Below are positions 13,487 through 27,396 of a DNA stretch of 32,995 nucleotides, one piece after another. Positions within the stretch are counted from its first letter, which is position 1. Every line of letters begins with the position of its first letter. Made by a program: the position numbers and the translations under genes. Origin of the DNA: Ignavibacteriota bacterium (GTDB lineage Bacteria > Bacteroidota > Ignavibacteria > UBA10030 > UBA6906); contig PMNE01000060.1 in the NCBI GenBank assembly GCA_003162635.1, positions 82,720-115,714 of the forward strand, read 5' to 3'. Under the pieces are notes generated by a model, which was not told the origin of the DNA, did no database searches, and saw nothing but the letters and a program-made list of their open reading frames with translations.

Positions 13487-14734
13487 CTATTCGCTGCTCT
13501 TGCCTGAGATGTGGTGCTCCCCCTTCAACTGCTCGTCAAGCCATCGATCGAACAGTCCGTCCTCCTTTGTCTTCTGCGTGATCCGTTCCTGCAGGGTAGG
13601 CACAAGTTCCGCCTTGATGAGAATGACCAGTTCCTTCTTAATCGTCTCTTCCCTGTTGTAGCCGAAGAGATATCGGAGGCCAAAGACGTACCAGGGAAGG
13701 TCCTTGAGGAAGGGAATCCCCTGCCGAACCACATCGTTCTCGGAATTGTACAGACCCCCGATGATCGTCTCCTCACCGTCGAGCATGAGCAGATTGGTGC
13801 TTGCCTTCGTCTTGTTCAGTATCGTGCTGATCGTCCCGGGCTCGACCGAACTCCGCTCGACTTCGACCTTCATGTGGATGAAGTTCACCCCCTGCTCGGA
13901 GATCACTTGCGGAGTCACCGTGACGATCGTACCGGCGCTATAGAACTTGTCGATGAGGTTCCCCGCAAAATCGCGCTCCCGGATGGAGAAGTCCTGCCCG
14001 ACCTGGATGCGCCCTTCCTCACCGGAACGAACGGCAATCTGGGGGCCGCTGAGAATCTCCCCAAGTGAATACGTGCTAAAAAGCTTTGCCGTCGCAGTGA
14101 TATTGGCAAACGACAATTTCGGCGTCACCGTCGTCTTGAAAATCTCACTTGTGACCTTGTCGCCCCCCCCGAAACTCGACGTGATATCCACGTCGTTCGT
14201 GCTCTTCATGAAACTCCAGTTGATGCCGGTTTCGTTCAGCTTGTCGAGGTCGACCTCAAAGAAAACCGCGGAGATCTTGACTTCCCGGCTCCGGAAATTC
14301 GCAGCTTCCTTGACGAACCCGACCGTCCCCGCTATCGTAGGTCCCGTCGTCCCCGCCTGCACCCCCCCTTTTCCCGCTTCCGTTCCGCCGCTGATCTGGA
14401 TGTACCCCTCGTACTCGGTGTACCAGACTTCATTCTTCCGGCAGATGGCCTCCAGGGCATCCCGCCATTGCATCCCCTGAATATCCACATTGATCGGCCC
14501 GGTACGGTGCTCCGTATCGATGATGATCTTCGCGATCGACTTCTTGCTCACCTCGCTGATCACGGAGAGTGCTTTGTCAAAGGACGCGGTCGGCGCGATT
14601 GAGACCAGCTCGGCCGGCGATATGTACTCCCGCAGATTTCGCCGTTCCGAGGAGCTCCCTCCCTGTACCTGCCCCATTGCCGCCTGCGCGACGCAGACGA
14701 GGGCCACAACCATGAACAACGCTGCATTCTTCAT
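13487..14734 (-). CDS. Short secretin, PilQ/GspD-like outer membrane channel
   Basis: 415 residues. A signal peptide (~1-22, ending AAMGQ) is followed by an STN-like domain (~45-120, with VDIQGMQWRDALEAIC) and then a secretin core: GGLYNSENDVVRQGIPFLKD and LVILIKAELVPTL are family hallmarks. AGGAG lies very close to the ATG. PilQ proteins are usually over 600 residues with AMIN and several N-domains; this one has room for only one periplasmic domain before the channel. By position it is the outer membrane pore of the pilus machine. The gap to the PilO/P-like gene is 13 bases. Confidence 0.88.
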   Translation of the reverse strand: MKNAALFMVVALVCVAQAAMGQVQGGSSSERRNLREYISPAELVSIAPTASFDKALSVISEVSKKSIAKIIIDTEHRTGPINVDIQGMQWRDALEAICRKNEVWYTEYEGYIQISGGTEAGKGGVQAGTTGPTIAGTVGFVKEAANFRSREVKISAVFFEVDLDKLNETGINWSFMKSTNDVDITSSFGGGDKVTSEIFKTTVTPKLSFANITATAKLFSTYSLGEILSGPQIAVRSGEEGRIQVGQDFSIRERDFAGNLIDKFYSAGTIVTVTPQVISEQGVNFIHMKVEVERSSVEPGTISTILNKTKASTNLLMLDGEETIIGGLYNSENDVVRQGIPFLKDLPWYVFGLRYLFGYNREETIKKELVILIKAELVPTLQERITQKTKEDGLFDRWLDEQLKGEHHISGKSSE

Positions 14735-14747
14735 AATCTCCTCGGTC

Positions 14748-15644
14748 CTATTTTTTTACGACTGTTTGAAGCGGGCCATAGCGGATCTTTAACTCCACTT
14801 TTTCGATAATCCCACCCTTGTTCAGGGTACATTCGATCCGCCCCCCTTCAGGGTCGATCTTCGTGACATATCCCAGATAGACCTCGTCCCCTTCCTGGAG
14901 TGTCCGAATGACGTTCGTCTGATCCAGCACGTAGGCCTTGCCGGTGATGACAGCCTTCAGATCGGAACGCTCGATCTCGACGAGTTCGCGCGCGTTCGGC
15001 GCGATGCCGCTCGAAATCACCGGTGCGAAGGGATCAACGGCAAGCGGATTCGGTGTGATGGACCGTTCGCCGAGGGAGCTGGAAAGCTCCGTCACCGATG
15101 AGAAGTAGGCCCTCACGGCCATCTCGAATGTTACAAGAACCTTCCCCTCTTCCTTCTCCGTCGGGGCGACCTCAAGCCCATGGATCGTCATCGTTTGTAT
15201 TTTGTAGAGCTTACGGTCGTTTTCCAGGTACCAGACGAACCGGTAGAAATTCTCGAACGGCGCCTCCCCCTTGAGGTTGTACACGTTGTAGCCGTAATTC
15301 CCGAGCGACTGGACGCCAGAGTACACCATATCGAGCTTCACATCTCCGCTGAGGTCGATCAGACGGCTGAAGTATGCGTAGCTCTGCGAGGTGATGTCCA
15401 CAGGGGGGATGTCCTTGTTCCGGTTCTCCCACCGTTTCTGCGTATCAGTCAGGAGGGTGCTCAGATCGTTGAACTCATTCACCAGGTTCGGCGTGTTCTG
15501 CAGCTCTTCGTCGATCTTCTTCACTTCCTTCTCGATCTGCTTCGACTTCCGCGGCAAATTGAACGCCCTGATGTAGGTTCCCACCCCCAGAACCAGAAGG
15601 AACAGGACGCCGAGCGCGATGCTGTTGCGGACTTTATATGACAC
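14748..15644 (-). CDS. PilO-like protein with PilP-like C-terminal domain (putative fusion)
   Basis: 298 residues, GTG start with AAGGAG 7 bases upstream. One membrane helix at about 8-27 (SIALGVLFLLVLGVGTYI) is followed by a coiled coil rich in Lys and Glu (30-75) and a ferredoxin-like region (100-185) with NFYRFVWYLENDRKLY, as in PilO. After a Pro-rich linker (~190-215), residues ~225-295 (LKAVITGKAYVLDQTNVIRT... then EGDEVYLGYVTKI) read as a small beta-domain like the C-terminal part of PilP. PilN/O/P form the inner-membrane and periplasmic alignment complex linking PilM to the secretin. The PilO part is fairly sure from order and topology; the PilP part is inferred. No separate pilP is seen. 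Confidence 0.78.
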   Translation of the reverse strand: MSYKVRNSIALGVLFLLVLGVGTYIRAFNLPRKSKQIEKEVKKIDEELQNTPNLVNEFNDLSTLLTDTQKRWENRNKDIPPVDITSQSYAYFSRLIDLSGDVKLDMVYSGVQSLGNYGYNVYNLKGEAPFENFYRFVWYLENDRKLYKIQTMTIHGLEVAPTEKEEGKVLVTFEMAVRAYFSSVTELSSSLGERSITPNPLAVDPFAPVISSGIAPNARELVEIERSDLKAVITGKAYVLDQTNVIRTLQEGDEVYLGYVTKIDPEGGRIECTLNKGGIIEKVELKIRYGPLQTVVKK

Positions 15645-15668: not shown

Positions 15669-17231
15669 TTACTGTCCAGCAGCAGGACTGGGGACTTCGA
15701 TGTTGTACTTGTACACTGTCTGGTCCCTGATGGCCTGCACGTTCACTTCTTTCAAAAGCGAGTTGTCGAACAACGTCGCCAACCGGGGAATTCTCGTCCG
15801 ATAGACCGTGAACCCGTTGATCTTGATCAGTCCCTCCTGACCCGCCGCAAAATCGCTGAGCCAGATCGAGTTGAGGTCCTCCACACCGTGGCTGACCTGC
15901 GTCAGGACCTTGCTCCACCGCTCGCTTCCGGGGACAAGGGAATCATAGAGGGCAAGCGACGTCTTATACCGCCCCAGTTGTTCCTGGAGAGTCTGGATAG
16001 AGCCTGCCAGGGTCTGGTTCTCCGCCCTTTGTCCCTCCTTGAGCGTCAACACATCGCGCAACTCCCGGATGTCGCGCGATTTCTGGCCGATCTGCCACGT
16101 GAAGAAGAGGGTGGACAGGAACAGCAGGAGCATCAGGAGGTACCCATGCCAGGCCAGCTTGAAGACCCGCTGCCCTTCGCGGATCTCCGCGGGGAGCAGA
16201 TTCACCTTATACACGAGAGGGTTGTTCGGTTCGAGGACCCGCCATGCGACGCCGATGGGGACGGCGTACTCGGAGAGCATGTCCTGCTCCTCTGCCGTCA
16301 GTTCCGTTGTGTCAAGACGGGGCGCCAGGAGATACTCCACCTCCTGTTCAGGAAGCTGCTGGATCAGAAAGTCCCGAAAGGCAATCCGCTTGGATTCACC
16401 CGCGAGGATGATACGATGAATGCGCGGAATCGCCAGGTTGTCCTGCTCGAGCAGCAGCCGGCTGTAGACCGTATTCTGCAGGTTCGGCGAGTCGTACCCT
16501 TCGCCCAGGATCGGGGCGAACTGGTAGAAGTGATCGCCGCGCATGAAGATCAGGCGCGTGAATTCCACGCCGACGTAGATGATCACCGACACTTCCTGCG
16601 GCTGGAGATCGTAGTTGAGCCGCACGGTGTTCATGAGTGAAATGTCGGCGCTGTCGATCACAGGGATGAACGGAATCCGCCCGCCGATGAAACCCTTGAC
16701 ATTCTCCAGGGAATTGATGAGACTCAGCCCATCCTCGCGCACAACGCACAGGAGGTTCCCTTCGTCCGTCTTGATCGCGTCCACCGCATCGGCGGCCGGC
16801 TGGAAGGCACGGATATTCTTCAACTCCTCCAGAATCCGATCCTTCAACTTCTTCCCCTTCAGCCCGAAGTCGCTTTCGAGGATGTGGTAGTAGATCGCCG
16901 GTTCGGAGAGACTATACGTGAGGGAATACCGGTTGGAGGGATACTGGGCAAGCAATCCCAGCAGCACGGCATTATTGTCCTCAGACTGGGATTCAGCAAC
17001 TGCTTCAGAGGTCGTGCCTTCCCCCAGACTGAATGCGTCGGTGCTGTCACCGACGGCGGGGGCCATGGTCTCTGCGGGCTTCTGCTCCTGCAGTTTGGTA
17101 ATCAGCGTCGCCGACCTGAGCTCCTGGACGATGATGCGATTCTTCCGAGCGACCAGGTGTGCGAGTTTGACATCCAAACCATCAACGAAGAGACCGATGA
17201 CCGATTTGCCTCGACCTGCTACTTTGGCCAT
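15669..17231 (-). CDS. PilM-PilN-like fusion protein
   Basis: 520 residues. The N-terminal ~330 residues resemble the actin-like PilM fold (SVIGLFVDGLDVKLAHL at the start; VSVIIYVGVEFTRLIFM further on). A membrane helix at about 358-378 (YLLMLLLFLSTLFFTW) follows, then a coiled coil and a PilN-like periplasmic domain with WSKVLTQVSHGVEDLNSIWL. In most bacteria these are separate cytoplasmic and inner-membrane proteins. The ATG at 17231 was chosen because the similarity begins right after it. A GTG at 17276, overlapping the pilT stop, is in frame, and neither start has a clear SD. Confidence 0.8.
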   Translation of the reverse strand: MAKVAGRGKSVIGLFVDGLDVKLAHLVARKNRIIVQELRSATLITKLQEQKPAETMAPAVGDSTDAFSLGEGTTSEAVAESQSEDNNAVLLGLLAQYPSNRYSLTYSLSEPAIYYHILESDFGLKGKKLKDRILEELKNIRAFQPAADAVDAIKTDEGNLLCVVREDGLSLINSLENVKGFIGGRIPFIPVIDSADISLMNTVRLNYDLQPQEVSVIIYVGVEFTRLIFMRGDHFYQFAPILGEGYDSPNLQNTVYSRLLLEQDNLAIPRIHRIILAGESKRIAFRDFLIQQLPEQEVEYLLAPRLDTTELTAEEQDMLSEYAVPIGVAWRVLEPNNPLVYKVNLLPAEIREGQRVFKLAWHGYLLMLLLFLSTLFFTWQIGQKSRDIRELRDVLTLKEGQRAENQTLAGSIQTLQEQLGRYKTSLALYDSLVPGSERWSKVLTQVSHGVEDLNSIWLSDFAAGQEGLIKINGFTVYRTRIPRLATLFDNSLLKEVNVQAIRDQTVYKYNIEVPSPAAGQ

Positions 17232-17265
17232 AGGACTGATTACCGGTTGTGAGTACGTGTGGTCT

Positions 17266-18504
17266 TCAATCGCCACCGCCCATCGGGGCGAGGTTCATGA
17301 TCTGCTGGAAGCGCCGCTTGTTATTCGAAGCGACAACGCCATTTTCCAGTGAGATCCTTTTCTGCATATACAAACGTTTCAGATCCTGTTCCAGCGTCAT
17401 CATGCCAAGGTCGCCCGATTCCGCCATCATCTGGTAGATTTCGCCCGTATTGTTGTTTTTGATCGCGGCCCGGACCGACGGGGTCATGATCATCACTTCT
17501 TTTGCCAGGACTCGCTTCCCGTCGAGACTCGGAACAAGTTTCTGCGACACAACAGTCGTCAGTGTATCCGCCAGGCGGATCCGCACGCGTTCCTGCTCCC
17601 GTTCCGGAACCTCGCCGATGATACGATCGATCGTTTCGACAGCCGAGGCAGTATGAAGCGTGGAAAACACCTTGTGTCCGCTGTCCGTAATTTCCAGTGC
17701 GGTCAGAATCGTATCCGGGTCGCGCATTTCTCCGATGACAATGATGTCGGGGTCCTGGCGCAGCGCTTGAATCGCTCCCTCCTTGAACGAAAGGACGTCC
17801 CTTCCCACCTCCCGATGCCTGATAATACAGTGATCGGGACGGTGGACGTACTCCACGGGGGAGGCGATGATGACAACGTGGCCATCGACGGTGTGGTTGT
17901 TGGCATCGATGATGCTGTCCAGCGTGGAACTCTTCCCGGAGCCCGTGATGCCCGTGACCAGGGTCAGCCCCTGCTCCATGTGTGCGAGACTCAGCATCTT
18001 GGTTACATTCTGGTGGAACTCCAGGTTCTTGTAAGGGCGGACGTTGGTATTGATGGAGCGCATGTTCAATGCGAGGTGATCCAGGTCGAAGTAGGCATTG
18101 GCGCGGTACCTGTACGACTTGTCTTCCTCTGTCACGCTGTAGGAGAGGTCGAGACTCCTGTTTTCGTAAAGGAACAACCTCTGGCGTTCCAGGAGGATGC
18201 TCTGGATCAGGACGTTGAACTCATCCAGCGTGAAATTACCGAGGTCTTTTGCCGGACGCTTCTCCCCATAGATTCGATACCATACATGTCCCCCTGTCCC
18301 ATACCCCCCAATGTCGATGTCCGACGCGTTGATCTTGGACATCCTGACAAGGTAGGTGTCCATTAATTTCCGGAGAGCGGTCCTTTCGGCCGGGGATTGC
18401 TTGGTCAAGAGGTCGCCGATCAACATCTGACGCTCCATGCCCGGCACTGTATCGGGCAGAGCGCTGGCAATCTCCTGCAACGTCTTTATTGCCGTCTCTA
18501 TCAT
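17266..18504 (-). CDS. PilT-like twitching/retraction ATPase
   Basis: 412 residues. Walker A GITGSGKSS lies at ~185-193, Walker B IIVIGEMRD at ~254-262 and the His box STLHT follows. The ASDIDI segment, which in PilT sits near the N-terminus, is here at ~60-65, so there is an extra N-terminal region of about 55 residues. PilT hexamers depolymerise the pilus. The start at 18504 is preferred over TTG at 18534 because the promoter at 18546-18574 predicts a transcript start near 18539, leaving no room for an SD before the TTG. The gene ends just upstream of the PilM-like gene and probably co-transcribes with it. Confidence 0.9.
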   Translation of the reverse strand: MIETAIKTLQEIASALPDTVPGMERQMLIGDLLTKQSPAERTALRKLMDTYLVRMSKINASDIDIGGYGTGGHVWYRIYGEKRPAKDLGNFTLDEFNVLIQSILLERQRLFLYENRSLDLSYSVTEEDKSYRYRANAYFDLDHLALNMRSINTNVRPYKNLEFHQNVTKMLSLAHMEQGLTLVTGITGSGKSSTLDSIIDANNHTVDGHVVIIASPVEYVHRPDHCIIRHREVGRDVLSFKEGAIQALRQDPDIIVIGEMRDPDTILTALEITDSGHKVFSTLHTASAVETIDRIIGEVPEREQERVRIRLADTLTTVVSQKLVPSLDGKRVLAKEVMIMTPSVRAAIKNNNTGEIYQMMAESGDLGMMTLEQDLKRLYMQKRISLENGVVASNNKRRFQQIMNLAPMGGGD

Positions 18505-18545
18505 AAGGTCACATGAGACCTGGTTATGTCGCAAAACTCAACGTG

Positions 18546-18756: not shown

Positions 18757-20550
18757 TCAGTCCCCGGTCGTCGCTGAAGCGATCTCTTCAAGCGTTGTCT
18801 GTCCGAGCTTCATCCTCTCCATGCCTGCCCGGCGAATCGTCCACATGCCGTCTTTGACGGCCTGCTCCCGCACTGCTTCCTCGTCCACTTCGGCTCCGGA
18901 TTTGACGATCAGCCGTCGGATATCCCTCGTGAAATAGAGCGCCTCATGAATGGCGGCTCTTCCCTTATACCCACCGCTGCACTTGTCGCAGCCGGCGGCT
19001 TCGTAGAACGTGTACTGGTCCAGATCTTCCTCGGTGAAACCGAACTTCAGATAGGTGTCTCTGTCCAGTTCGTTCTTCGCCACGGGACGCCTGCAGGCGG
19101 TACAGAGCGTCCGGATCAGCCGCTGTGCCACGATGATGTTGATCGCGTAGGCGATCAGGAACGGCTCGATCCCCATTTTATACAAACGGCTGACCGCGCT
19201 CGGGGCGTCGTTCGTATGAAGAGTGGAGAATGTCAAGTGTCCCGTATTGGCAAGCTTGATGGCAATCTCTGCCGTGGTCTTATCGCGCATCTCTCCGACC
19301 AACACGATGTCGGGGTCATGACGGAGGATACCGCGGATGGCCTGATCGAAGGTCATCTTCGGCCCGATCTTCAGCTGGCGGGCGCCGCGGATGATATACT
19401 CTACCGGGTCCTCCACGGTCAACACGTTCACCGTAGGATCTATCACCTGGTGGAGTGCGGCAACCAGCGTCGTGCTCTTGCCGCTTCCCGTCGGACCCGT
19501 CAGGATGACGATCCCCTGAGGTTTATTGATCGCCTTGTTGAAGAACTCCTTGGCCGGACCGGTGAGACCGAGTTTGTTCAGGTCAGTGATCACCTTCCGG
19601 TCGTCGAGAACGCGGATGACGATGCTTTCAAACTTGTGTTTGTATTCCACGCCGACGATCGGCATGATCGAGACACGGAAGCGGATCATGGTGCCGTCGA
19701 TCTCGCGCTGGATGAAGCCGTCCTGCGTCGCCTCGCGCTCGAATCGGTCAACATTCTTGGAGCGATCCTTCACGACCGCCGCAACGGCCTCCGGCATGGT
19801 CTTCTCCTGCACGTGCCAGAGCTTCAGCGAGCCGTCCACCCGGAACCAGAATTCGGTGCAGTTCCCTTCCTTTGCGAGGATGTGAATGTCGCTTGCCCCC
19901 TGCCGGACGGCTTCTACAAGCGAACCCTCGACCAGGTTGACAAGGGCGCTCTTGGAGATTTCGGCTTCCAGCGCCTCTTCGTCAAGAGCCGTCTCCTCCT
20001 CATCGTCCTTGACCTGCAGCCCGACTTGCGAGTTCTCCAGAAGTTTCAGGAACTCGTTCTCAGGCGGGATGACCTGCTCGAAAAGGTTCTGCAAATCCTT
20101 GAGGCGGCAATAGGCGACCTCGTACTTCTTTGCCCCAAAGTTCCTTGCGACCAGGGGGATCCTCCGGTCGGTCGGATCGGCCGCAATGATGATGAGCTTG
20201 TCGGGTTGTTTCTCGTCGAATCTCAGCGGGACCATCTTGGTCTGCAGCAGCATCTCGCGGATATTGGCCGGCAGGTTGTCGACGAGTTTCTTGATGAAGT
20301 CGATCTTGGGCTTGTCGAGCTTCTCGTCCGCGAGGTAGATCTCCCGGAAGGCATAGAGATCGGCAACCTCCCGGAATACTGCATCGTGGTCGGCGTTGAA
20401 ATCGTTCACCAGGATCTGGCCGAGATTGCGCCTGTTTTTCTTCTCTTCCGATTCCTTGACCTTGAGGGACTTCTCAAGGGTCTCGTAATCGATGATCCCT
20501 TTCTTCAGGAGGGCGAACCCGATCTTGTCGGTGATGTCGATGTGCGCCAT
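18757..20550 (-). CDS. pilB: PilB-like pilus assembly ATPase
   Basis: 597 residues. An N-terminal GspE/MshEN-type domain (~1-160) is followed by a long acidic linker, then the PilB/GspE ATPase: Walker A GPTGSGKST from residue 352 with Lys358, Asp box TVEDPVEYI, Walker B IVLVGEMRD and His box STLHTNDA. A four-Cys zinc motif (CTAC then CDKC) is typical of PilB/GspE. All catalytic residues are present. It powers pilus extension together with PilC, whose gene is 39 bases upstream. No clear SD precedes the ATG, so coupling to pilC is possible. Confidence 0.95.
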   Translation of the reverse strand: MAHIDITDKIGFALLKKGIIDYETLEKSLKVKESEEKKNRRNLGQILVNDFNADHDAVFREVADLYAFREIYLADEKLDKPKIDFIKKLVDNLPANIREMLLQTKMVPLRFDEKQPDKLIIIAADPTDRRIPLVARNFGAKKYEVAYCRLKDLQNLFEQVIPPENEFLKLLENSQVGLQVKDDEEETALDEEALEAEISKSALVNLVEGSLVEAVRQGASDIHILAKEGNCTEFWFRVDGSLKLWHVQEKTMPEAVAAVVKDRSKNVDRFEREATQDGFIQREIDGTMIRFRVSIMPIVGVEYKHKFESIVIRVLDDRKVITDLNKLGLTGPAKEFFNKAINKPQGIVILTGPTGSGKSTTLVAALHQVIDPTVNVLTVEDPVEYIIRGARQLKIGPKMTFDQAIRGILRHDPDIVLVGEMRDKTTAEIAIKLANTGHLTFSTLHTNDAPSAVSRLYKMGIEPFLIAYAINIIVAQRLIRTLCTACRRPVAKNELDRDTYLKFGFTEEDLDQYTFYEAAGCDKCSGGYKGRAAIHEALYFTRDIRRLIVKSGAEVDEEAVREQAVKDGMWTIRRAGMERMKLGQTTLEEIASATTGD

Positions 20551-20589: not shown

Positions 20590-21969
20590 TCAGGACATAG
20601 GTTCCTGCACAACCGTGACGGTCGATTGGCCCATCGCCGGGTTTTTCGGCCTCATCGTCGCCGTCTCCGAGGAAACAAGGGTCAATGCCGTCAACACGAT
20701 CATGATGACCATCGAGATCCAGAGCTGGATGAAATCGATGGCGTTCCTCATCTTATATGATGTTTCCTTTTCATAGTACTCCGCGAGCTGGAGAGCGGTG
20801 TTCTTCACGGTCCCGGTCTCCGCGCCGGAGTGAAACCGCGCGATGGCGGTCTTCGTAAACACGCCGGTTGCTTCGAATGCTTCGGTAATCCCGGCCCCCT
20901 TCTGAATCATCATGGGAAGGGCAACGGTCTTGATCTGGTGTTCCATAAACTTGTTCCCGCACGCTTCCGCTGCAAGACGGATCACCTCGATGTTCTCCCC
21001 CGCCCCGCTGTAGAGGGCATAGAAGACACGGCAGAAGATTTCGATGCTGGTCTTGTGGAGGAGCTGCCCGATGACCGGAACGCTCCAGATATACTTGTCC
21101 ATGATGAACCGGCCGCGGTCCGTCATGAAGAAACGGACGGCCAGGATCGTCGGAACGATTATGATGATCAGGAGGATGATCATATGGTCCACCAGAAAAT
21201 CACTGAGGACCAGGGTCGCTTTGGTCATCGGCGGCAGATCCACCTTGAACTTCACGAACAACTTGGCGGTGGCGGGGAAGATGTACCCGACGTAATAGAT
21301 GACGGCGCCGAAGAGAACGATCAGCGTCACAATGGGACTGATCAGGGCGCTCTTGAGATTCTTCTTGAATTCGGCCTGACGCTCGAGGAACTTCGCCGTG
21401 CTGTCGTAGATCTCGGCCATGTTCCCGCTCTTGGAGGCGAGACCGAGCATGTGGGCGGTAAACCGGCCGAGAACCGCTTCATGCTTGATGAAGGCGCGCT
21501 CGCTGTCCTTTCCCTGCTTCAGCTCCGTGTTGATGTCCTTGATCGCTTCGCGCAGCGTCCGGTTCTGGATGTCGTTCACCATGAGCTGCATGATCTCGTT
21601 GAACGGGAGCTTCTGCCGGATCAGGTCGGCGCTGACGCGGACAAAGGTGACGACCTCGGTGGCCGGAGGCCTTGCCTTGAAGTCGAACATCCGCTTCTGC
21701 ACGCGGATGACCCGGAAGCCCATTTTCTGAAGGGCCTCCCTGACTTCCCCCTTCGTGAAGGCCTTCTGCTCCCCCATGATGGGTTTCTCCGTTCCCCGCT
21801 GCACCTTGTACACCCAGGTGGCGCGGGGTATGACGTGCAGCAGCTTGAAATTGCGCTGCTGGGAGAGTTGCCCGGCTTTCTGCTTTGCCGTATGGGTGGA
21901 ATCTGCTTCGAGGATTCCCTGGATGGGTTTCCCTCCGGGGGTCACGCCTTCTATCCGATACTCCGCCAT
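20590..21969 (-). CDS. pilC: PilC-like inner-membrane platform protein
   Basis: 459 residues with two T2SSF domains (about 105-235 and 310-435) and strongly hydrophobic segments at ~215-240 (ALISPIVTLIVLFGAVIYYV), ~265-290 (IILLIIIIVPTIL) and ~420-440. The motifs RQKLPFNEI and FHSGAETGTV are family-like. PilC sits in the inner membrane and is turned by PilB to insert pilins. An extra N-terminal domain (1-100) with a YRIEGVTPGGKPIQG start is common in the family. TGAGGAG lies 6 bases before the ATG. Confidence 0.94.
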   Translation of the reverse strand: MAEYRIEGVTPGGKPIQGILEADSTHTAKQKAGQLSQQRNFKLLHVIPRATWVYKVQRGTEKPIMGEQKAFTKGEVREALQKMGFRVIRVQKRMFDFKARPPATEVVTFVRVSADLIRQKLPFNEIMQLMVNDIQNRTLREAIKDINTELKQGKDSERAFIKHEAVLGRFTAHMLGLASKSGNMAEIYDSTAKFLERQAEFKKNLKSALISPIVTLIVLFGAVIYYVGYIFPATAKLFVKFKVDLPPMTKATLVLSDFLVDHMIILLIIIIVPTILAVRFFMTDRGRFIMDKYIWSVPVIGQLLHKTSIEIFCRVFYALYSGAGENIEVIRLAAEACGNKFMEHQIKTVALPMMIQKGAGITEAFEATGVFTKTAIARFHSGAETGTVKNTALQLAEYYEKETSYKMRNAIDFIQLWISMVIMIVLTALTLVSSETATMRPKNPAMGQSTVTVVQEPMS

Positions 21970-22160: not shown

Positions 22161-22568
22161 TCAGTTCGTTTGCGTGTTGTCGACAATGACACTGTCAGCG
22201 TAGACCAGCATGACCAACTTGACATTCCCGGGGTTCAGACCGGTCTGTGTCCCCACTCCCGTCAATGTGACATGATCCGGGGTTCCCCCCACGGGATCCG
22301 GATTGAGCGAATAGGTCCCGTTATCGTTGACGGGCTTGCTCGTAATCTTCGCCATGGTCAAACCGCGGAAACTGTAATTGCCACCCCCCAGCACTGATGG
22401 CTTTCGAAAATACGCCCGGGCTGCTGACGCATAATGGGCAAGATCATTGGCGACTTGATCACGGTTGGTGGATGTTGCCTGGTCCTGGAACATGGTCATC
22501 CCCACGGCAATCATGACGCCTATGATGACAAGACCGACCACGATAAGTAAGAGCTGCTGGCTGCCCAT
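22161..22568 (-). CDS. Pilin-like protein 3 (divergent member of the set)
   Basis: 135 residues. The start MGSQQLLLIVVGLVIIG is closely related to the two upstream pilin-like genes, with a hydrophobic helix at ~5-25, then TSTNRDQVANDLAHYASAA and a GGGNYSFRGL turn in the same place. The C-terminal half is different. No GF(T/S)LIE-type cleavage site or Glu5 is present. The probable SD (GGGAAA) lies in the 3' arm of a hairpin just upstream. As last of three pilin-like genes it may be a minor pilin. Confidence 0.75.
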   Translation of the reverse strand: MGSQQLLLIVVGLVIIGVMIAVGMTMFQDQATSTNRDQVANDLAHYASAARAYFRKPSVLGGGNYSFRGLTMAKITSKPVNDNGTYSLNPDPVGGTPDHVTLTGVGTQTGLNPGNVKLVMLVYADSVIVDNTQTN

Positions 22569-22575
22569 AGTCTGT

Positions 22576-22593
22576 TTTCCCGGCCCGGGGAAA
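22576..22593 (-). promoter_or_regulatory. Hairpin covering the SD of pilin-like gene 3
   Basis: TTTCCC and GGGAAA (22576-22581 and 22588-22593) form a 6-bp stem with a 6-base loop. The 3' arm on the minus strand holds the only SD-like purines before the ATG at 22568. No T-run follows, so translational dampening is likelier than termination. Confidence 0.4.
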
Positions 22594-22598
22594 GAGTG

Positions 22599-23015
22599 TT
22601 AGTTGACCATCCAGACGCTATCGCGATCCGGCCACACTTTGGCTTGCACCTGAACTGCTGTGCCGTTGTTCAATTCGTTCCCGATACCTTTGATGGTCAG
22701 GGAGGCAGAGGTTCCCGTGCCACTTCCGGCAACCGTGATGGAATACGTGCCGTTGCCATTCGAGGGCTTGTTCGTCAGCCTCGACAGACCAGTCGCGTCT
22801 GCCGTCAGTCCGCTGAACGTATAGCCGCCGCCGCCGAGCGCTACCGGACGACGATAGTATTGCTGCGCACGCGATGCGAGGTTCACCAGGTCATTAGTGA
22901 GTGCATCACGGTTCGCAGAAATCGCGCTGTCGGAGAACATCGTGATCCCGACCGCTACTGCAATGCCCACGACGATGACGCCGAGGATGATGAGCAAAAG
23001 TTGCTGTTGTCCCAT
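22599..23015 (-). CDS. Pilin-like protein 2
   Basis: 138 residues: MGQQQLLLIILG, a hydrophobic helix to ~27, then an amphipathic helix (SANRDALTNDLVNLASRA), QQYYRRP, a Gly-rich turn and a beta-rich C-terminal half. I count 123 of 138 residues identical to pilin-like protein 1, with the first 64 residues the same. The fold outline is that of a type IV pilin, but there is no standard prepilin peptidase site and no Glu5: the residue after M is Gly, then three Gln. AAGGAG lies 7 bases before the ATG. It follows a terminator after gene 1, so it is probably made at a lower level. Confidence 0.78.
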   Translation of the reverse strand: MGQQQLLLIILGVIVVGIAVAVGITMFSDSAISANRDALTNDLVNLASRAQQYYRRPVALGGGGYTFSGLTADATGLSRLTNKPSNGNGTYSITVAGSGTGTSASLTIKGIGNELNNGTAVQVQAKVWPDRDSVWMVN

Positions 23016-23150
23016 TACGGTTCTCCTTCAATTGCGTTGGTAAAGTTGCCGAGGCTGCACCCTCCCCACATCACTCGCGATACTTATGACCAAGAACCGT
23101 GCGACAAGCAACACTTGCTGGCCACCAAGAATCTGTCTTCCCCGCCACGG

Positions 23151-23178
23151 GAAAAAAGAGCCCCCTGAACAAGGGGGC
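23151..23178 (-). terminator. Intrinsic terminator after the lead pilin gene
   Basis: A 7-bp stem GCCCCCT/AGGGGGC (23160-23166 with 23172-23178) is followed on the minus strand by TCTTTTTT. It lies between the first two pilin-like genes. Partial read-through would give excess lead pilin over the genes downstream, as is common for major pilins. Confidence 0.85.
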
Positions 23179-23198
23179 CCGTACGATGGCGTAGAGTG

Positions 23199-23615
23199 TT
23201 AGTTCACAGTCCAGACGCTGTCGCGATCCTGCCACACCTTGCATTGCACTTGCACCGCTGTACCGTTGTTCAATTCGTTCCCGATACCCGTGAGGGTAAG
23301 GGTCGCAGCAGTTCCCGTGCCGCCTGCAGCCGTGCTGATTGTATAGGTACCGTTCCCATTCGAGGGCTTGTTCGTCAGCTTCGCCAGACCAGTCGCGTCT
23401 GCCGTCAGTCCGCTGAACGTATTGCCGCCGCCGCCGAGGGCTACAGGACGACGATAGTATTGCTGCGCACGCGATGCGAGGTTCACCAGGTCATTGGTGA
23501 GTGCATCACGGTTCGCAGAAATCGCGCTGTCGGAAAACATCGTGATCCCGACCGCCACTGCGATCCCCACGACGATGACGCCGAGGATGATGAGCAAAAG
23601 TTGCTGTTGTCCCAT
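23199..23615 (-). CDS. Pilin-like protein 1 (probable major pilin)
   Basis: 138 residues, same layout as protein 2: MGQQQLLLI start, single hydrophobic helix, amphipathic extension, AQQYYRRP motif, Gly-rich turn, beta-rich C-terminal half ending DRDSVWTVN. It has one Cys (VQCKVW) that the duplicate lacks. AAGGAG lies 7 bases before the ATG. A sigma-54-like promoter upstream and a terminator directly downstream give it its own short transcript, as expected for a major pilin. The pilin call rests on topology and on lying between pilB-like and pilC genes; the missing cleavage motif leaves some doubt. Confidence 0.78.
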   Translation of the reverse strand: MGQQQLLLIILGVIVVGIAVAVGITMFSDSAISANRDALTNDLVNLASRAQQYYRRPVALGGGGNTFSGLTADATGLAKLTNKPSNGNGTYTISTAAGGTGTAATLTLTGIGNELNNGTAVQVQCKVWQDRDSVWTVN

Positions 23616-23702: not shown

Positions 23703-23718
23703 TGCAAGTGGCATGCCA
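23703..23718 (-). promoter_or_regulatory. Sigma-54-type promoter of the lead pilin gene
   Basis: The minus strand reads TGGCATGCCACTTGCA against the consensus TGGCACG-N4-TTGCA. The -24 GG (23717-23716) and -12 GC (23705-23704) are exactly 10 bases apart. The predicted start, near 23692, gives a 5' leader of about 77 bases. pilA genes of several bacteria use sigma-54 with a PilR-type activator. Confidence 0.7.
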
Positions 23719-23873: not shown

Positions 23874-25730
23874 TTACGCCAGGGCCGCTGCAACCTCCGT
23901 CAACGTCGTCAACCCGCGCTTCAGCAATTCAGTTCCGGCGCGGGTCAGCGTCACCATCCCCTGCTCGATTGCTTTCTCTTTCAAGTCCTTGGCGTCAAGC
24001 CGATCGTGCGACCAAAGAACGATTTCCCTGACTTCCGGCGTGAAATCCAGCGCTTCATGCAGGGGAAGGCGTCCCTTGAACCCACCCGTGCAATTGATGC
24101 AGCCAACCGGGCGGTAAAACGTCGTCGCCGCGGCTTCCTCTTCCGTGAACCCGAGCCGAAGAACAAGATCGCGGCTCACCTTATTGATCGGCTCCTTGCA
24201 TCGTTCGCAGAGCCGGCGAACCTGCCGCTGCGTCACCACCACAGCGAGCCCCTCGGCGATGAGAAACGGTTCAATTCCCATTGCCATCAGATGGGCAACA
24301 GTCGCAACGCCGTCGCGGGCGTGGATTTTCCCAAAGACATGGCGCCCCGTCATGGCAAGGCGGAGACCCGTCCTCGCCGCAAGAGGCGATTCGAGTTCAC
24401 CAAGGTAGATCACATCGGGATCGTGGTTGATGACCGCCCGCACCGCGTCGTCGTACTCGAGCTTCGGGTTCAGCCGGATCTGCTGCGCCCCTTCGATGAC
24501 GAACTCCATTGGATTCTCCACCGTCACGGTACTATACCCCTGCCGCATCACAATCTTGAGCATGGAGGCAACGGTGTCGATCCGGCCCGCACCGGAGGGT
24601 CCCGCGACAAGGATGAGTCCGCTGGGACGGGCGATGGCCTCACGGACGGTGCGGAGCGTCACGGGTTCGGGAATGGCCGTGTCGAGCGGGACGGGGTCGA
24701 CATCCCGCCGGACGTGTATCGCAATGGATTCGAGCTTGCCTGATACCTCGCGCGACAGAACCGGCAGGATCGACACCCCAAAACGAACCGTTTGGCTGTC
24801 GATGCTCTTCTGGAACGATCCCCCCTGGGCCGCCATGCGCTCGAAACGGTCCATGCTCGGACCCCGCGATTTAATCACCGCTGCAACTGCTTCCGTCCGC
24901 GTATCTTCGATCGTGTACCACAGAGCAAGCTGTCCGTCGATCCTGAACCAGACGTCGGTCTTCCGGGCGGCCTTCGGTATCACGTGGATGTCAGTCGCAC
25001 CGACCCTTACGGCATCAGCGAGGATGTTCTCGATCAGTGCCTGCAATTGGCCCCGGGAGATATCCTTGTCGAGGATCTCCTCGAAGTCGGATTCGCTCTC
25101 CTCCACTGCCAGATCCGACGCGGCGAGGGATGTGCTGCCGGGCTGGTCCTTTTCCAGCGTCAGCTGGCGCCAGTACTCGGCCCAGTCGCGCTCCTTCATG
25201 TAGCAGATCTCGAACTTCTTGTACGGAAGGGCGCGCGCGACGTCGGAGATTTCCCGATCGGCGGGATTGGGCGTGACAACGATGATCTTGTCGGGCTGGT
25301 TCTCCGCCAGGTCGTAGGGAAGCACCTTGTGCCGCATCGCAAGCTGGCGGACCTGCTCCGGAAGTCCCCGGATGATCTTCAGCACGTCGGAGGGAAGGAG
25401 TCTTCGGGGACCCCTGTCGTTAATGTCGATGACACGGAAAGCGTAGAACTGCGCGACCTGATAATGAAGAACATCCTGCGACAGCCCAAATTCCTCCTTC
25501 AGGATGTCGATCAGGCTCCTCTTGTCCTTCTCGTTCTGCTTCTTCCAGTCCGCCGCCTGCATCGCAACCTCTTCGGAGATGATCCGGTTGCGAACAAGGT
25601 GTTCGAGGAACGACGTCATGAAGGGGCGCGGTCCCCCCGCCTGCGTCCGCGGACCCGCGGTGATATTGGTGCTCCTCCGCTGTTCGTCCTCCGACGGTCT
25701 CGGCATCATTGGAAGATCTGATTTCGCCAT
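23874..25730 (-). CDS. PilB/GspE-like protein with degenerate ATP site (probable pseudo-ATPase)
   Basis: 618 residues, collinear with the intact PilB encoded downstream: N-terminal GspE/MshEN-like domain (~35-200), linker, then the ATPase fold. The nucleotide site is decayed. Walker A reads GPSGAGRID at 377-385, so the P-loop Lys is Arg383 and the Ser/Thr is Ile384. The Asp box reads TVENPMEF, Walker B VIYLGELES and the His box GKIHARDG in place of STLHTNDA. The zinc cysteines remain (CERC, CINC). The frame is intact over its whole length, so the protein is kept, not a pseudogene. It is directly upstream of the pilin genes and 7 bases after an orphan receiver gene. A regulatory or scaffold role in pilus assembly is the simplest reading. 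Confidence 0.9.
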   Translation of the reverse strand: MAKSDLPMMPRPSEDEQRRSTNITAGPRTQAGGPRPFMTSFLEHLVRNRIISEEVAMQAADWKKQNEKDKRSLIDILKEEFGLSQDVLHYQVAQFYAFRVIDINDRGPRRLLPSDVLKIIRGLPEQVRQLAMRHKVLPYDLAENQPDKIIVVTPNPADREISDVARALPYKKFEICYMKERDWAEYWRQLTLEKDQPGSTSLAASDLAVEESESDFEEILDKDISRGQLQALIENILADAVRVGATDIHVIPKAARKTDVWFRIDGQLALWYTIEDTRTEAVAAVIKSRGPSMDRFERMAAQGGSFQKSIDSQTVRFGVSILPVLSREVSGKLESIAIHVRRDVDPVPLDTAIPEPVTLRTVREAIARPSGLILVAGPSGAGRIDTVASMLKIVMRQGYSTVTVENPMEFVIEGAQQIRLNPKLEYDDAVRAVINHDPDVIYLGELESPLAARTGLRLAMTGRHVFGKIHARDGVATVAHLMAMGIEPFLIAEGLAVVVTQRQVRRLCERCKEPINKVSRDLVLRLGFTEEEAAATTFYRPVGCINCTGGFKGRLPLHEALDFTPEVREIVLWSHDRLDAKDLKEKAIEQGMVTLTRAGTELLKRGLTTLTEVAAALA

Positions 25731-25737
25731 ACCCGAG

Positions 25738-26112
25738 CTACCCTTGGGATGTGCTTGGTCTGAACTTCTCGATCAGGGCGACGATGTCTTCAAGAGGAGT
25801 GGTTTTGCTCACAAAGAAGTCGCGCGGTGATTCCGCGGCGAGCCCCCTAGTATGTTCGTCATCATACCCCGAAATGAAGATGAACGGAATCTCCGCCGAG
25901 GAGGTAAATTCCCTCACGTAACTGTGAAAACGGACGCCATCCAGCGTTGGCATGAACACGTCGGAGATGATCAGATCGAATTTCTCCTCGTCCAGCGCTT
26001 CGCGGGCCTGTTTTCCGTCCTCCGCCAGTACCACGTCATAGCCATGGTCGCGCAATGCGGTACCCATGGCGTGGAGGAAACCCTCTTCGTCGTCCACCAG
26101 AAGGATTTTCAT
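25738..26112 (-). CDS. Orphan response-regulator receiver domain
   Basis: 124 residues from the ATG at 26112, with GAGG 6 bases upstream; an 11-codon extension is rejected because the receiver fold starts at MKILLVDDEE. The acidic pocket is D7-D8, the phospho-acceptor D51 (IISDVFMP), the switch Ser81 (FISGYDD) and Lys103 (VSKTTP). No output domain follows, so it is CheY/PilG/PilH-like and must act by protein contact. It ends 7 bases before the degenerate PilB-like gene. No histidine kinase is in the window. Confidence 0.92.
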   Translation of the reverse strand: MKILLVDDEEGFLHAMGTALRDHGYDVVLAEDGKQAREALDEEKFDLIISDVFMPTLDGVRFHSYVREFTSSAEIPFIFISGYDDEHTRGLAAESPRDFFVSKTTPLEDIVALIEKFRPSTSQG

Positions 26113-26126
26113 GAATTTCCTCAGTG

Positions 26127-26149
26127 AAAAGGAGTGATCCCCCACTCCT
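26127..26149 (-). terminator. Possible intrinsic terminator after the tRNA gene
   Basis: AGGAGTG/CACTCCT (26130-26136 with 26143-26149) forms a 7-bp stem with a 6-base loop, followed on the minus strand by TTTTC. It lies 31 bases past the tRNA 3' end and just before the receiver gene, so some read-through into that gene is possible. Confidence 0.6.
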
Positions 26150-26914: not shown

Positions 26915-27012
26915 AATGGCTGGAGTAAAGCCTCGGTCTTCCTCAGTTCTGCGTTTTCCGACCTCCGCTCCTCTGCATGAGATTCGTTTCAATTTGCGCA
27001 AGGAGGGCAAGT

Positions 27013-27396
27013 ATGGCCAAGGGTAAGAGTATCCTTCAGCATTGCGCCCACTGTGAGCGGACGACCAAGATGGAGGTCATCGGGCCGGTCGAAAACCAGC
27101 CCGAGAAGACATGGTACCGATGCACGCGTTGCCGCCACGCAGCTTTGATCGACATGGCTGCCCTGCGCCAGGAGCTGGAGACAGCGCAGAGGAAACCGGA
27201 ACGGGCCGACTGCCTGGAGTACAAACCGGGGAACAGCTACCAGATCGGCGAGGCAATCTTCCACGTCGAGTGGGGAATCGGGAAGGTCGTCTCCAAAGAA
27301 AGGACCTCGGGGGGCGACAAGGCCATCGTTGTGGCGTTTGAAAAACTCGGCGAACGGCGTCTTCTGGAAAACGTCGCCGCAGAGGCAGAACCGTAG
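27013..27396 (+). CDS. Small protein with zinc ribbon and UvrD/PcrA-type Tudor-like C-terminal domain
   Basis: 127 residues from MAKGKSILQH, with AGGAGG 6 bases before the ATG. Two CxxC pairs (CAHC near 11, CTRC near 37) form a zinc ribbon at about 10-45. After a short helix, residues ~78-122 (FHVEWGIGKVVS, then DKAIVVAFEKLGERRLL) match the pattern of the small Tudor-like domain at the C-terminus of UvrD/PcrA helicases, and more loosely CarD-type domains, both of which touch RNA polymerase. No helicase is attached. A transcription-linked role is possible but unproven. rpsU follows 45 bases later, likely on the same transcript. Confidence 0.75.
   Translation: MAKGKSILQHCAHCERTTKMEVIGPVENQPEKTWYRCTRCRHAALIDMAALRQELETAQRKPERADCLEYKPGNSYQIGEAIFHVEWGIGKVVSKERTSGGDKAIVVAFEKLGERRLLENVAAEAEP

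Follow-up and report, generated by a model that had tools for sequence, protein, structure and literature searches.

Why would a type IV pilus-like machine keep, beside a catalytically complete extension ATPase, a second PilB whose nucleotide site has come apart? The question is raised by PilB2 (a name that is positional only), encoded in the 32,995-nucleotide stretch of Ignavibacteriota DNA analysed here as a whole (the window), which the first-pass annotation took for a retained pseudo-ATPase of the pilus machine. Our analyses bear out that proposal: the loss is clade-wide and falls selectively on catalysis, the frames are intact and dN/dS lies far below 1. Taken together, they suggest that the catalytic site was lost long ago and that the gene has been kept across several genera mostly for its N-terminal end, as a component for docking or control and no longer as an engine.

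The degenerate nucleotide site of PilB2

The gene and the sites discussed below are located as follows, residues having been mapped on a structure-numbered alignment to Geobacter PilB (numbering of PMC5424180).

23874-25730, minus strand: PilB2, PilB-derived pseudo-ATPase of 618 aa (ORF, translation, Pfam T2SSE 6e-61, AlphaFold model against the PDB, tree)
25155-25625, minus strand: N-terminal domain, residues 36-192, ND0 and ND1, with ND1 at 25155-25364 (identity to the genus g6, tree-length ratio)
24777-24779, minus strand: first arginine finger lost, Gly318 (Geobacter PilB R271; structure-numbered alignment)
24714-24716, minus strand: second arginine finger lost, His339 (Geobacter PilB R286; structure-numbered alignment)
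24573-24602, minus strand: degenerate Walker A GPSGAGRIDT, residues 377-386 (translation, codons, alignment)
24312-24347, minus strand: altered His box GRHVFGKIHARD, residues 462-473 (alignment)
24090-24209, minus strand: zinc tetracysteine C508, C511, C544 and C547 (alignment; kept in 8/8 degenerate copies)

By domain, fold and zinc site, PilB2 is a member of the PilB/GspE-fold proteins. Both this fold and the N-terminal domain are present, and the AlphaFold model (pLDDT 80, pTM 0.53), which bears on the fold alone, has 5oiu, 5tsh and 5zfr as its closest PDB structures by Foldseek, PilB, PilF and GspE being the best solved relatives. The protein is 38% identical over almost its full length to PilB1, encoded 3.3 kb downstream. 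It scores 273 bits against TIGR02538 (cut-off 676, which the intact PilB1 also misses with 413), 201 against NF053534 for TfpB (cut-off 850) and 86 bits against TIGR01420 for PilT/PilU (cut-off 319). Since PilB2 fails the catalytic definition of the PilB/GspE family, we file it as a PilB-derived pseudo-ATPase.

Where the Walker A of PilB1 reads GPTGSGKSTT, that of PilB2 has lysine changed to Arg383, Ser/Thr to Ile384 and threonine to Asp385; the translation agrees with the residue numbers that the first-pass annotation had given to Arg383 and Ile384. That annotation had also described an altered His box, in which we find the first histidine replaced by Arg463 and the second, His470, retained, and it had counted as preserved the zinc cysteines, the Walker B glutamate (the catalytic Glu445) and the full-length frame, all of which are present in the translation and alignment. 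The catalytic losses are nevertheless wider than it stated, for both arginine fingers and the motif arginine that comes after the catalytic glutamate are gone too. In Geobacter PilB numbering, Lys331, Thr327, R271, R286, R397 and the first His-box histidine are missing, and Glu395 (catalytic), Glu357 (Asp-box, here Glu409), Thr411 and Arg455 (interchain) are retained. The two arginine fingers are described as completely conserved in the PilB/GspE family, for which the tetracysteine zinc site and the clade-specific interchain arginine are also named as a feature (PMC5424180). Arg455 of PilB contacts the neighbouring subunit at the nucleotide-free interface, and the interfaces with bound nucleotide are served by T327, R271 and R286 (PMC5424180); in the dead copies Arg455 persists, and most of the other three residues are gone. 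From these residues we strongly infer that PilB2 has lost catalysis.

The operon and the candidate partners

PilB2 lies in a conserved operon running from the response regulator through PilB2, pilins, PilC, PilB1, PilT, a PilM/N- or GspL-like protein, a GspM-like protein and the secretin to an Ig/invasin-type protein.

25738-26145, minus strand: receiver-domain response regulator (Pfam Response_reg 2.9e-21, synteny)
23703-23718, minus strand: sigma-54-type -24/-12 promoter TGGCATGCCACTTGCA, in the gap that separates PilB2 from the first pilin (motif match, conservation)
22161-23615, minus strand: three short pilin-like genes at 23199-23615, 22599-23015 and 22161-22568 (ORFs, weak ComP_DUS match, synteny)
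20590-21969, minus strand: PilC platform protein (Pfam T2SSF; sole PilC in the genome by whole-genome search)
18757-20550, minus strand: PilB1, catalytically intact extension ATPase (translation, Pfam, motifs)
17266-18534, minus strand: PilT-like retraction ATPase with intact GITGSGKSS (translation; TIGR01420 8e-95, just under cut-off)
15669-17276, minus strand: PilM/N- or GspL-like protein (ORF, synteny; no match in Pfam, the name reflecting location and length)
14748-15644, minus strand: GspM/PilO-like protein (ORF, synteny; likewise no match in Pfam and a name reflecting location and length)
13487-14734, minus strand: secretin (Pfam 2.5e-27, synteny)

The response regulator ends 7 bases ahead of PilB2 and adjoins it in the family loci whose contig extends that far. 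On the other side, TGGCATGCCACTTGCA is a perfect sigma-54-type match (chance expectation 0.01 per window) that recurs at the same place, with 0-2 mismatches, in 17 related loci, including loci without PilB2; given its position between PilB2 and the pilins, the response regulator and PilB2 may form a transcription unit of their own. In the three pilins, of which the first two are near-identical copies, the leader at the start is very short (MGQQQLLLII or MGSQQLLLIV) and the glutamate usual at position 5 is absent. Near the response regulator, most family loci also encode a small protein that contains cysteines and a PcrA/UvrD tudor-like domain (in the window at 26977-27396, plus strand).

In the whole genome, 98% complete, this locus accounts for the single PilC and for all three T2SSE (PilT-family) ATPases, and a search of that genome found no second T2SSE-type pilus machine. 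The partner of PilB2 is therefore most likely to be sought in this machine; the PilM-like stator, PilB1 and the adjacent response regulator are, we infer, the candidates.

Phylogenetic history and selection

We surveyed 21 genomes of the Ignavibacteria family to which the window belongs, apparently metagenome-assembled. Eight of them, from four genera, carry at the same operon place a PilB2 in which the Walker A lysine is replaced by arginine, valine or alanine. The P-loop reads GPSGAGRID in the window, GPSG[GC]GRTAT in three genomes of the genus g6 and GPAGSGVTT in genome G004, and none is recognisable in the three genomes of g12. Intact PilB2 is found in seven genomes of five genera, which form the sister clade. 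The gene is missing from three more (G001, G003 and G014) that retain the rest of the operon, and PilB2 is thus dispensable; the sample also includes one genome with the N-terminal half only (G002) and two whose contigs break at the PilB2 place (G007, G020). The Walker A lysine is present in 0/8 degenerate PilB2, 7/7 sister-clade PilB2, 20/20 PilB1 and 14/14 PilB3 (the paralogue of other families), and every catalytic residue is kept in all 20 aligned PilB1. Within the degenerate set, 8/8 copies have both the interchain Arg455 and the complete zinc tetracysteine, the first arginine finger has gone from 7/8 and the catalytic glutamate from 5/8; many copies lack either this residue or the Asp-box glutamate, the latter being absent from G004 and g12. 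At the Mg-binding Ser/Thr of the P-loop, g6 has threonine and the window isoleucine.

The first-pass annotation had asked whether Arg383 and Ile384 are constant. Arginine is (4/4), within the window and the genus g6 only, valine or alanine taking its place in the other degenerate orthologues; Ile384 occurs in the window alone. Orthologues with an intact GKS/T, which would have pointed to a local mutation or a sequencing error, do occur, but as a sister clade, and the degenerate state is common to at least four genera, so that it is not a local mutation; sequencing error can be discarded as well, the lysine loss being common to independent genomes and GC3 normal throughout the gene. Among 391 genomes of the class no closer relatives turned up outside the family, and an intact GK[ST] is found in 25/25 out-family homologues whose DNA was read.

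A phylogeny of 56 PilB proteins unites all degenerate copies in one clade (100/100), whose sister is the intact PilB2 of the family (99/96), and the two are jointly sister to PilB3 (98/97) and not to PilB1, which rules out a recent duplicate of PilB1. Several independent P-loop losses, as the arginine, valine and alanine replacements might suggest, were dropped in view of this single clade, and catalysis was most likely lost once, in the ancestor of one family clade. A tree of operon-core genes sets the carriers, along with G001 and G014, apart from the rest by a branch (SH-aLRT 99) and has one state change; its markers are linked to PilB2, and as a species tree it therefore depends on the operon. 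The simplest history would then comprise one catalytic loss, divergence of the dead site from lysine to arginine, valine or alanine, and later deletions of the gene. In two loci outside the family (L107 and L108, from genomes G049 and G025), PilB3 has its own PilC and lies near genes matching receiver domains; this arrangement may represent the context in which PilB2 originated.

The degenerate copies are under purifying selection, the outcome of the dN/dS check that the first-pass annotation had proposed. Pairwise Nei-Gojobori values, the larger distances being near synonymous saturation, are 0.060-0.099 among g6 copies and 0.115-0.142 when the window is compared with g6, all far below 1. A pair of intact PilB2 has 0.072, and PilB1 has 0.039-0.063 in those same g6 and window comparisons. 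The rate of PilB2 exceeds that of PilB1 throughout, and constraint is weaker in g12, where one pair gives 0.24; relaxation therefore makes up part of the signal. Ongoing decay by frameshift in two g6 copies (G005, G017) is ruled out since both breaks coincide with two-base N gaps of the assembly, and every readable copy is thus full length. Apparent frameshifts of PilT and PilC in L084, L088, L110 and L118 are likewise N runs from scaffolding, a pseudogene trap in these MAGs.

Constraint has been redistributed along the protein. At alignment columns that do not vary among 41 catalytic homologues from the order, the degenerate copies keep 105/240 cells at the nucleotide site and 539/717 outside it, cells not being independent. 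RecA, the slowest part of intact PilB2 (tree length 0.38), reaches 3.14 in the degenerate clade, and N2D passes from 0.83 to 2.8, while the N-terminal domain is little changed (1.57 intact, 1.77 degenerate); the RecA/N-terminal ratio is 1.77 (bootstrap 1.30-2.41) against 0.24 (0.14-0.36). Between the window and g6, identity amounts to 88% in ND0, 97% in ND1 and 54% in RecA. Constraint on the N-terminal domain, the part best preserved, is retained, not raised, and RecA, N2D and the C-terminal part are released, which supports a role of PilB2 through its N-terminal domain.

Possible roles of PilB2 and known systems

We consider it probable, at roughly 60%, that PilB2 was once a second pilus-assembly ATPase, lost its catalytic activity and has since been retained in the same type IV pilus-like machine as a non-catalytic subunit, docking or regulating through its N-terminal domain. 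The protein would still fold as a ring-forming PilB, and the closed interface driven by ATP could not be completed. It might dock through ND1 onto the PilM-like protein of its own operon and gate or tune PilB1, the one extension motor besides it, through shared or competitive use of the socket; alternatively, it could supply a fixed, nucleotide-free signalling state, and the adjacent receiver-domain protein would perhaps set the state of PilB2. ND1 is the binding site of GspL/PilM-type stators, the N-terminal domain also binds regulators such as PilZ (PMC8389850), and extension motors presumably compete with retraction motors for access to the stator (PMC11656802). In Myxococcus, a PilB with a dead Walker A is a dominant signalling form, probably in the nucleotide-free state (PMC5544727), and an inactive PilT supports PilU (PMC6762196). 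It is tempting to go further and to see here a natural, clade-wide pilus pseudo-ATPase that is a stand-alone, stator-docking regulator, a nucleotide-free PilB whose active N-terminal domain controls the engagement of PilB1, possibly under the receiver protein; this fuller picture we advance only tentatively.

Other readings have to be weighed against the docking or regulatory role; among the mechanisms put forward in the first-pass annotation were also mixed hexamers with PilB1 and a switch for PilC, either of which would be a further candidate. Non-catalytic subunits change step size, force or speed in other ring motors, and PilB2 protomers might do the same within PilB1 rings. Such insertion would be compatible with the ring fold and with the zinc site and Arg455 retained by 8/8 copies, as it would with the near full-length similarity of the two proteins, and PilB-TfpB hetero-oligomers have been raised as a possibility in a 2024 review (PMC11656802). 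Yet the arginine fingers that a neighbour's site would need are mostly gone too, and N2D and RecA, which would make the shared interfaces, are among the parts that have drifted (2.8 and 3.1 against 0.83 and 0.38 in the intact clade), so that we regard mixed hexamers as unlikely. We give slightly less credit to slow decay, according to which PilB2, once redundant, lost catalysis and is now being eliminated, slowed by residual constraint, for example against toxic misfolding: the three losses of the gene from otherwise present operons and the fast evolution of g12 and G004 are in its favour, but 0/8 copies have a disabled ORF, dN/dS is well below 1 with narrow intervals, ND1 of the window and g6 is nearly identical, and the clade is of an age near synonymous saturation, over which neutral genes would not keep their frames open.

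Two further readings leave PilB2 a working nucleotide site. Weak nucleotide binding may persist, judging by the Asp-box glutamate in the window and g6 and the P-loop threonine of g6, and a glycine-rich loop is kept in both; it is a longer step, and an improbable one, to a sensor that binds ATP or ADP through the arginine-substituted P-loop and the Asp-box glutamate and switches without hydrolysing. The window has isoleucine at the Mg-binding position, and with the Asp-box glutamate gone from G004 and g12, and the loop itself from g12, nucleotide binding cannot be the common function of the clade. The least probable, to our mind very much so, is an active ATPase with an atypical site, in which another basic residue would stand in for the P-loop lysine. 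Glu445 and His470 are present and nothing further was found in its favour; the lysine, both arginine fingers, the arginine after the catalytic glutamate and the first histidine are gone from the window copy, and the sister lineages show further, different losses.

The 2024 review (PMC11656802) poses as an open question what use certain pili have for more than one PilB. One family presents, at one place of one operon, an intact, a dead and an absent second PilB with a live motor adjoining, which amounts to a natural separation of function; comparing the three states allows one to ask what PilB does beyond hydrolysis, and via which domain. The first-pass annotation named no described PilB pseudo-ATPase encoded beside pilin genes, and our search of the open-access literature found no natural PilB pseudo-ATPase described.

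With PilB/GspE proteins (PF00437, TIGR02538; Geobacter PilB, Thermus PilF), PilB2 shares domain order, fold, zinc tetracysteine, interchain arginine and an operon with PilC, PilT and pilins, but it is devoid of the Walker A lysine and both arginine fingers. The ND0/ND1 layout is common to PilB2 and the MshEN-type c-di-GMP-binding ATPases (MshE, C. perfringens PilB2). Of the MshEN-like sensor once proposed for the N-terminal domain, the N-terminal role is favoured by the redistribution of constraint, whereas c-di-GMP sensing is unlikely, since the motif glycine of those ATPases is missing (R71-S-L replaces R-x-G of the RLGxxL-type motif, and no second motif was seen by eye in the domain) and the MshEN Pfam score, 22.4, is below the cut-off of 23.1. 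The Walker A mutant of Myxococcus PilB is a catalytically dead PilB with a signalling output, but it is engineered and not a natural paralogue (PMC5544727). PilU, the second retraction ATPase, resembles PilB2 as a paralogue working beside a primary motor; unlike it, PilU belongs to the PilT side and needs its own Walker boxes, the inactive partner tested having been an engineered PilT (PMC6762196). TfpB of Acinetobacter baylyi is a second and phylogenetically distinct PilB homologue on one pilus machine, as PilB2 would be, although it is described as an active motor, partly able to act alone, and is not encoded beside pilC (PMC8213720); as a second motor on one pilus, it can be regarded as the nearest functional parallel to PilB2.
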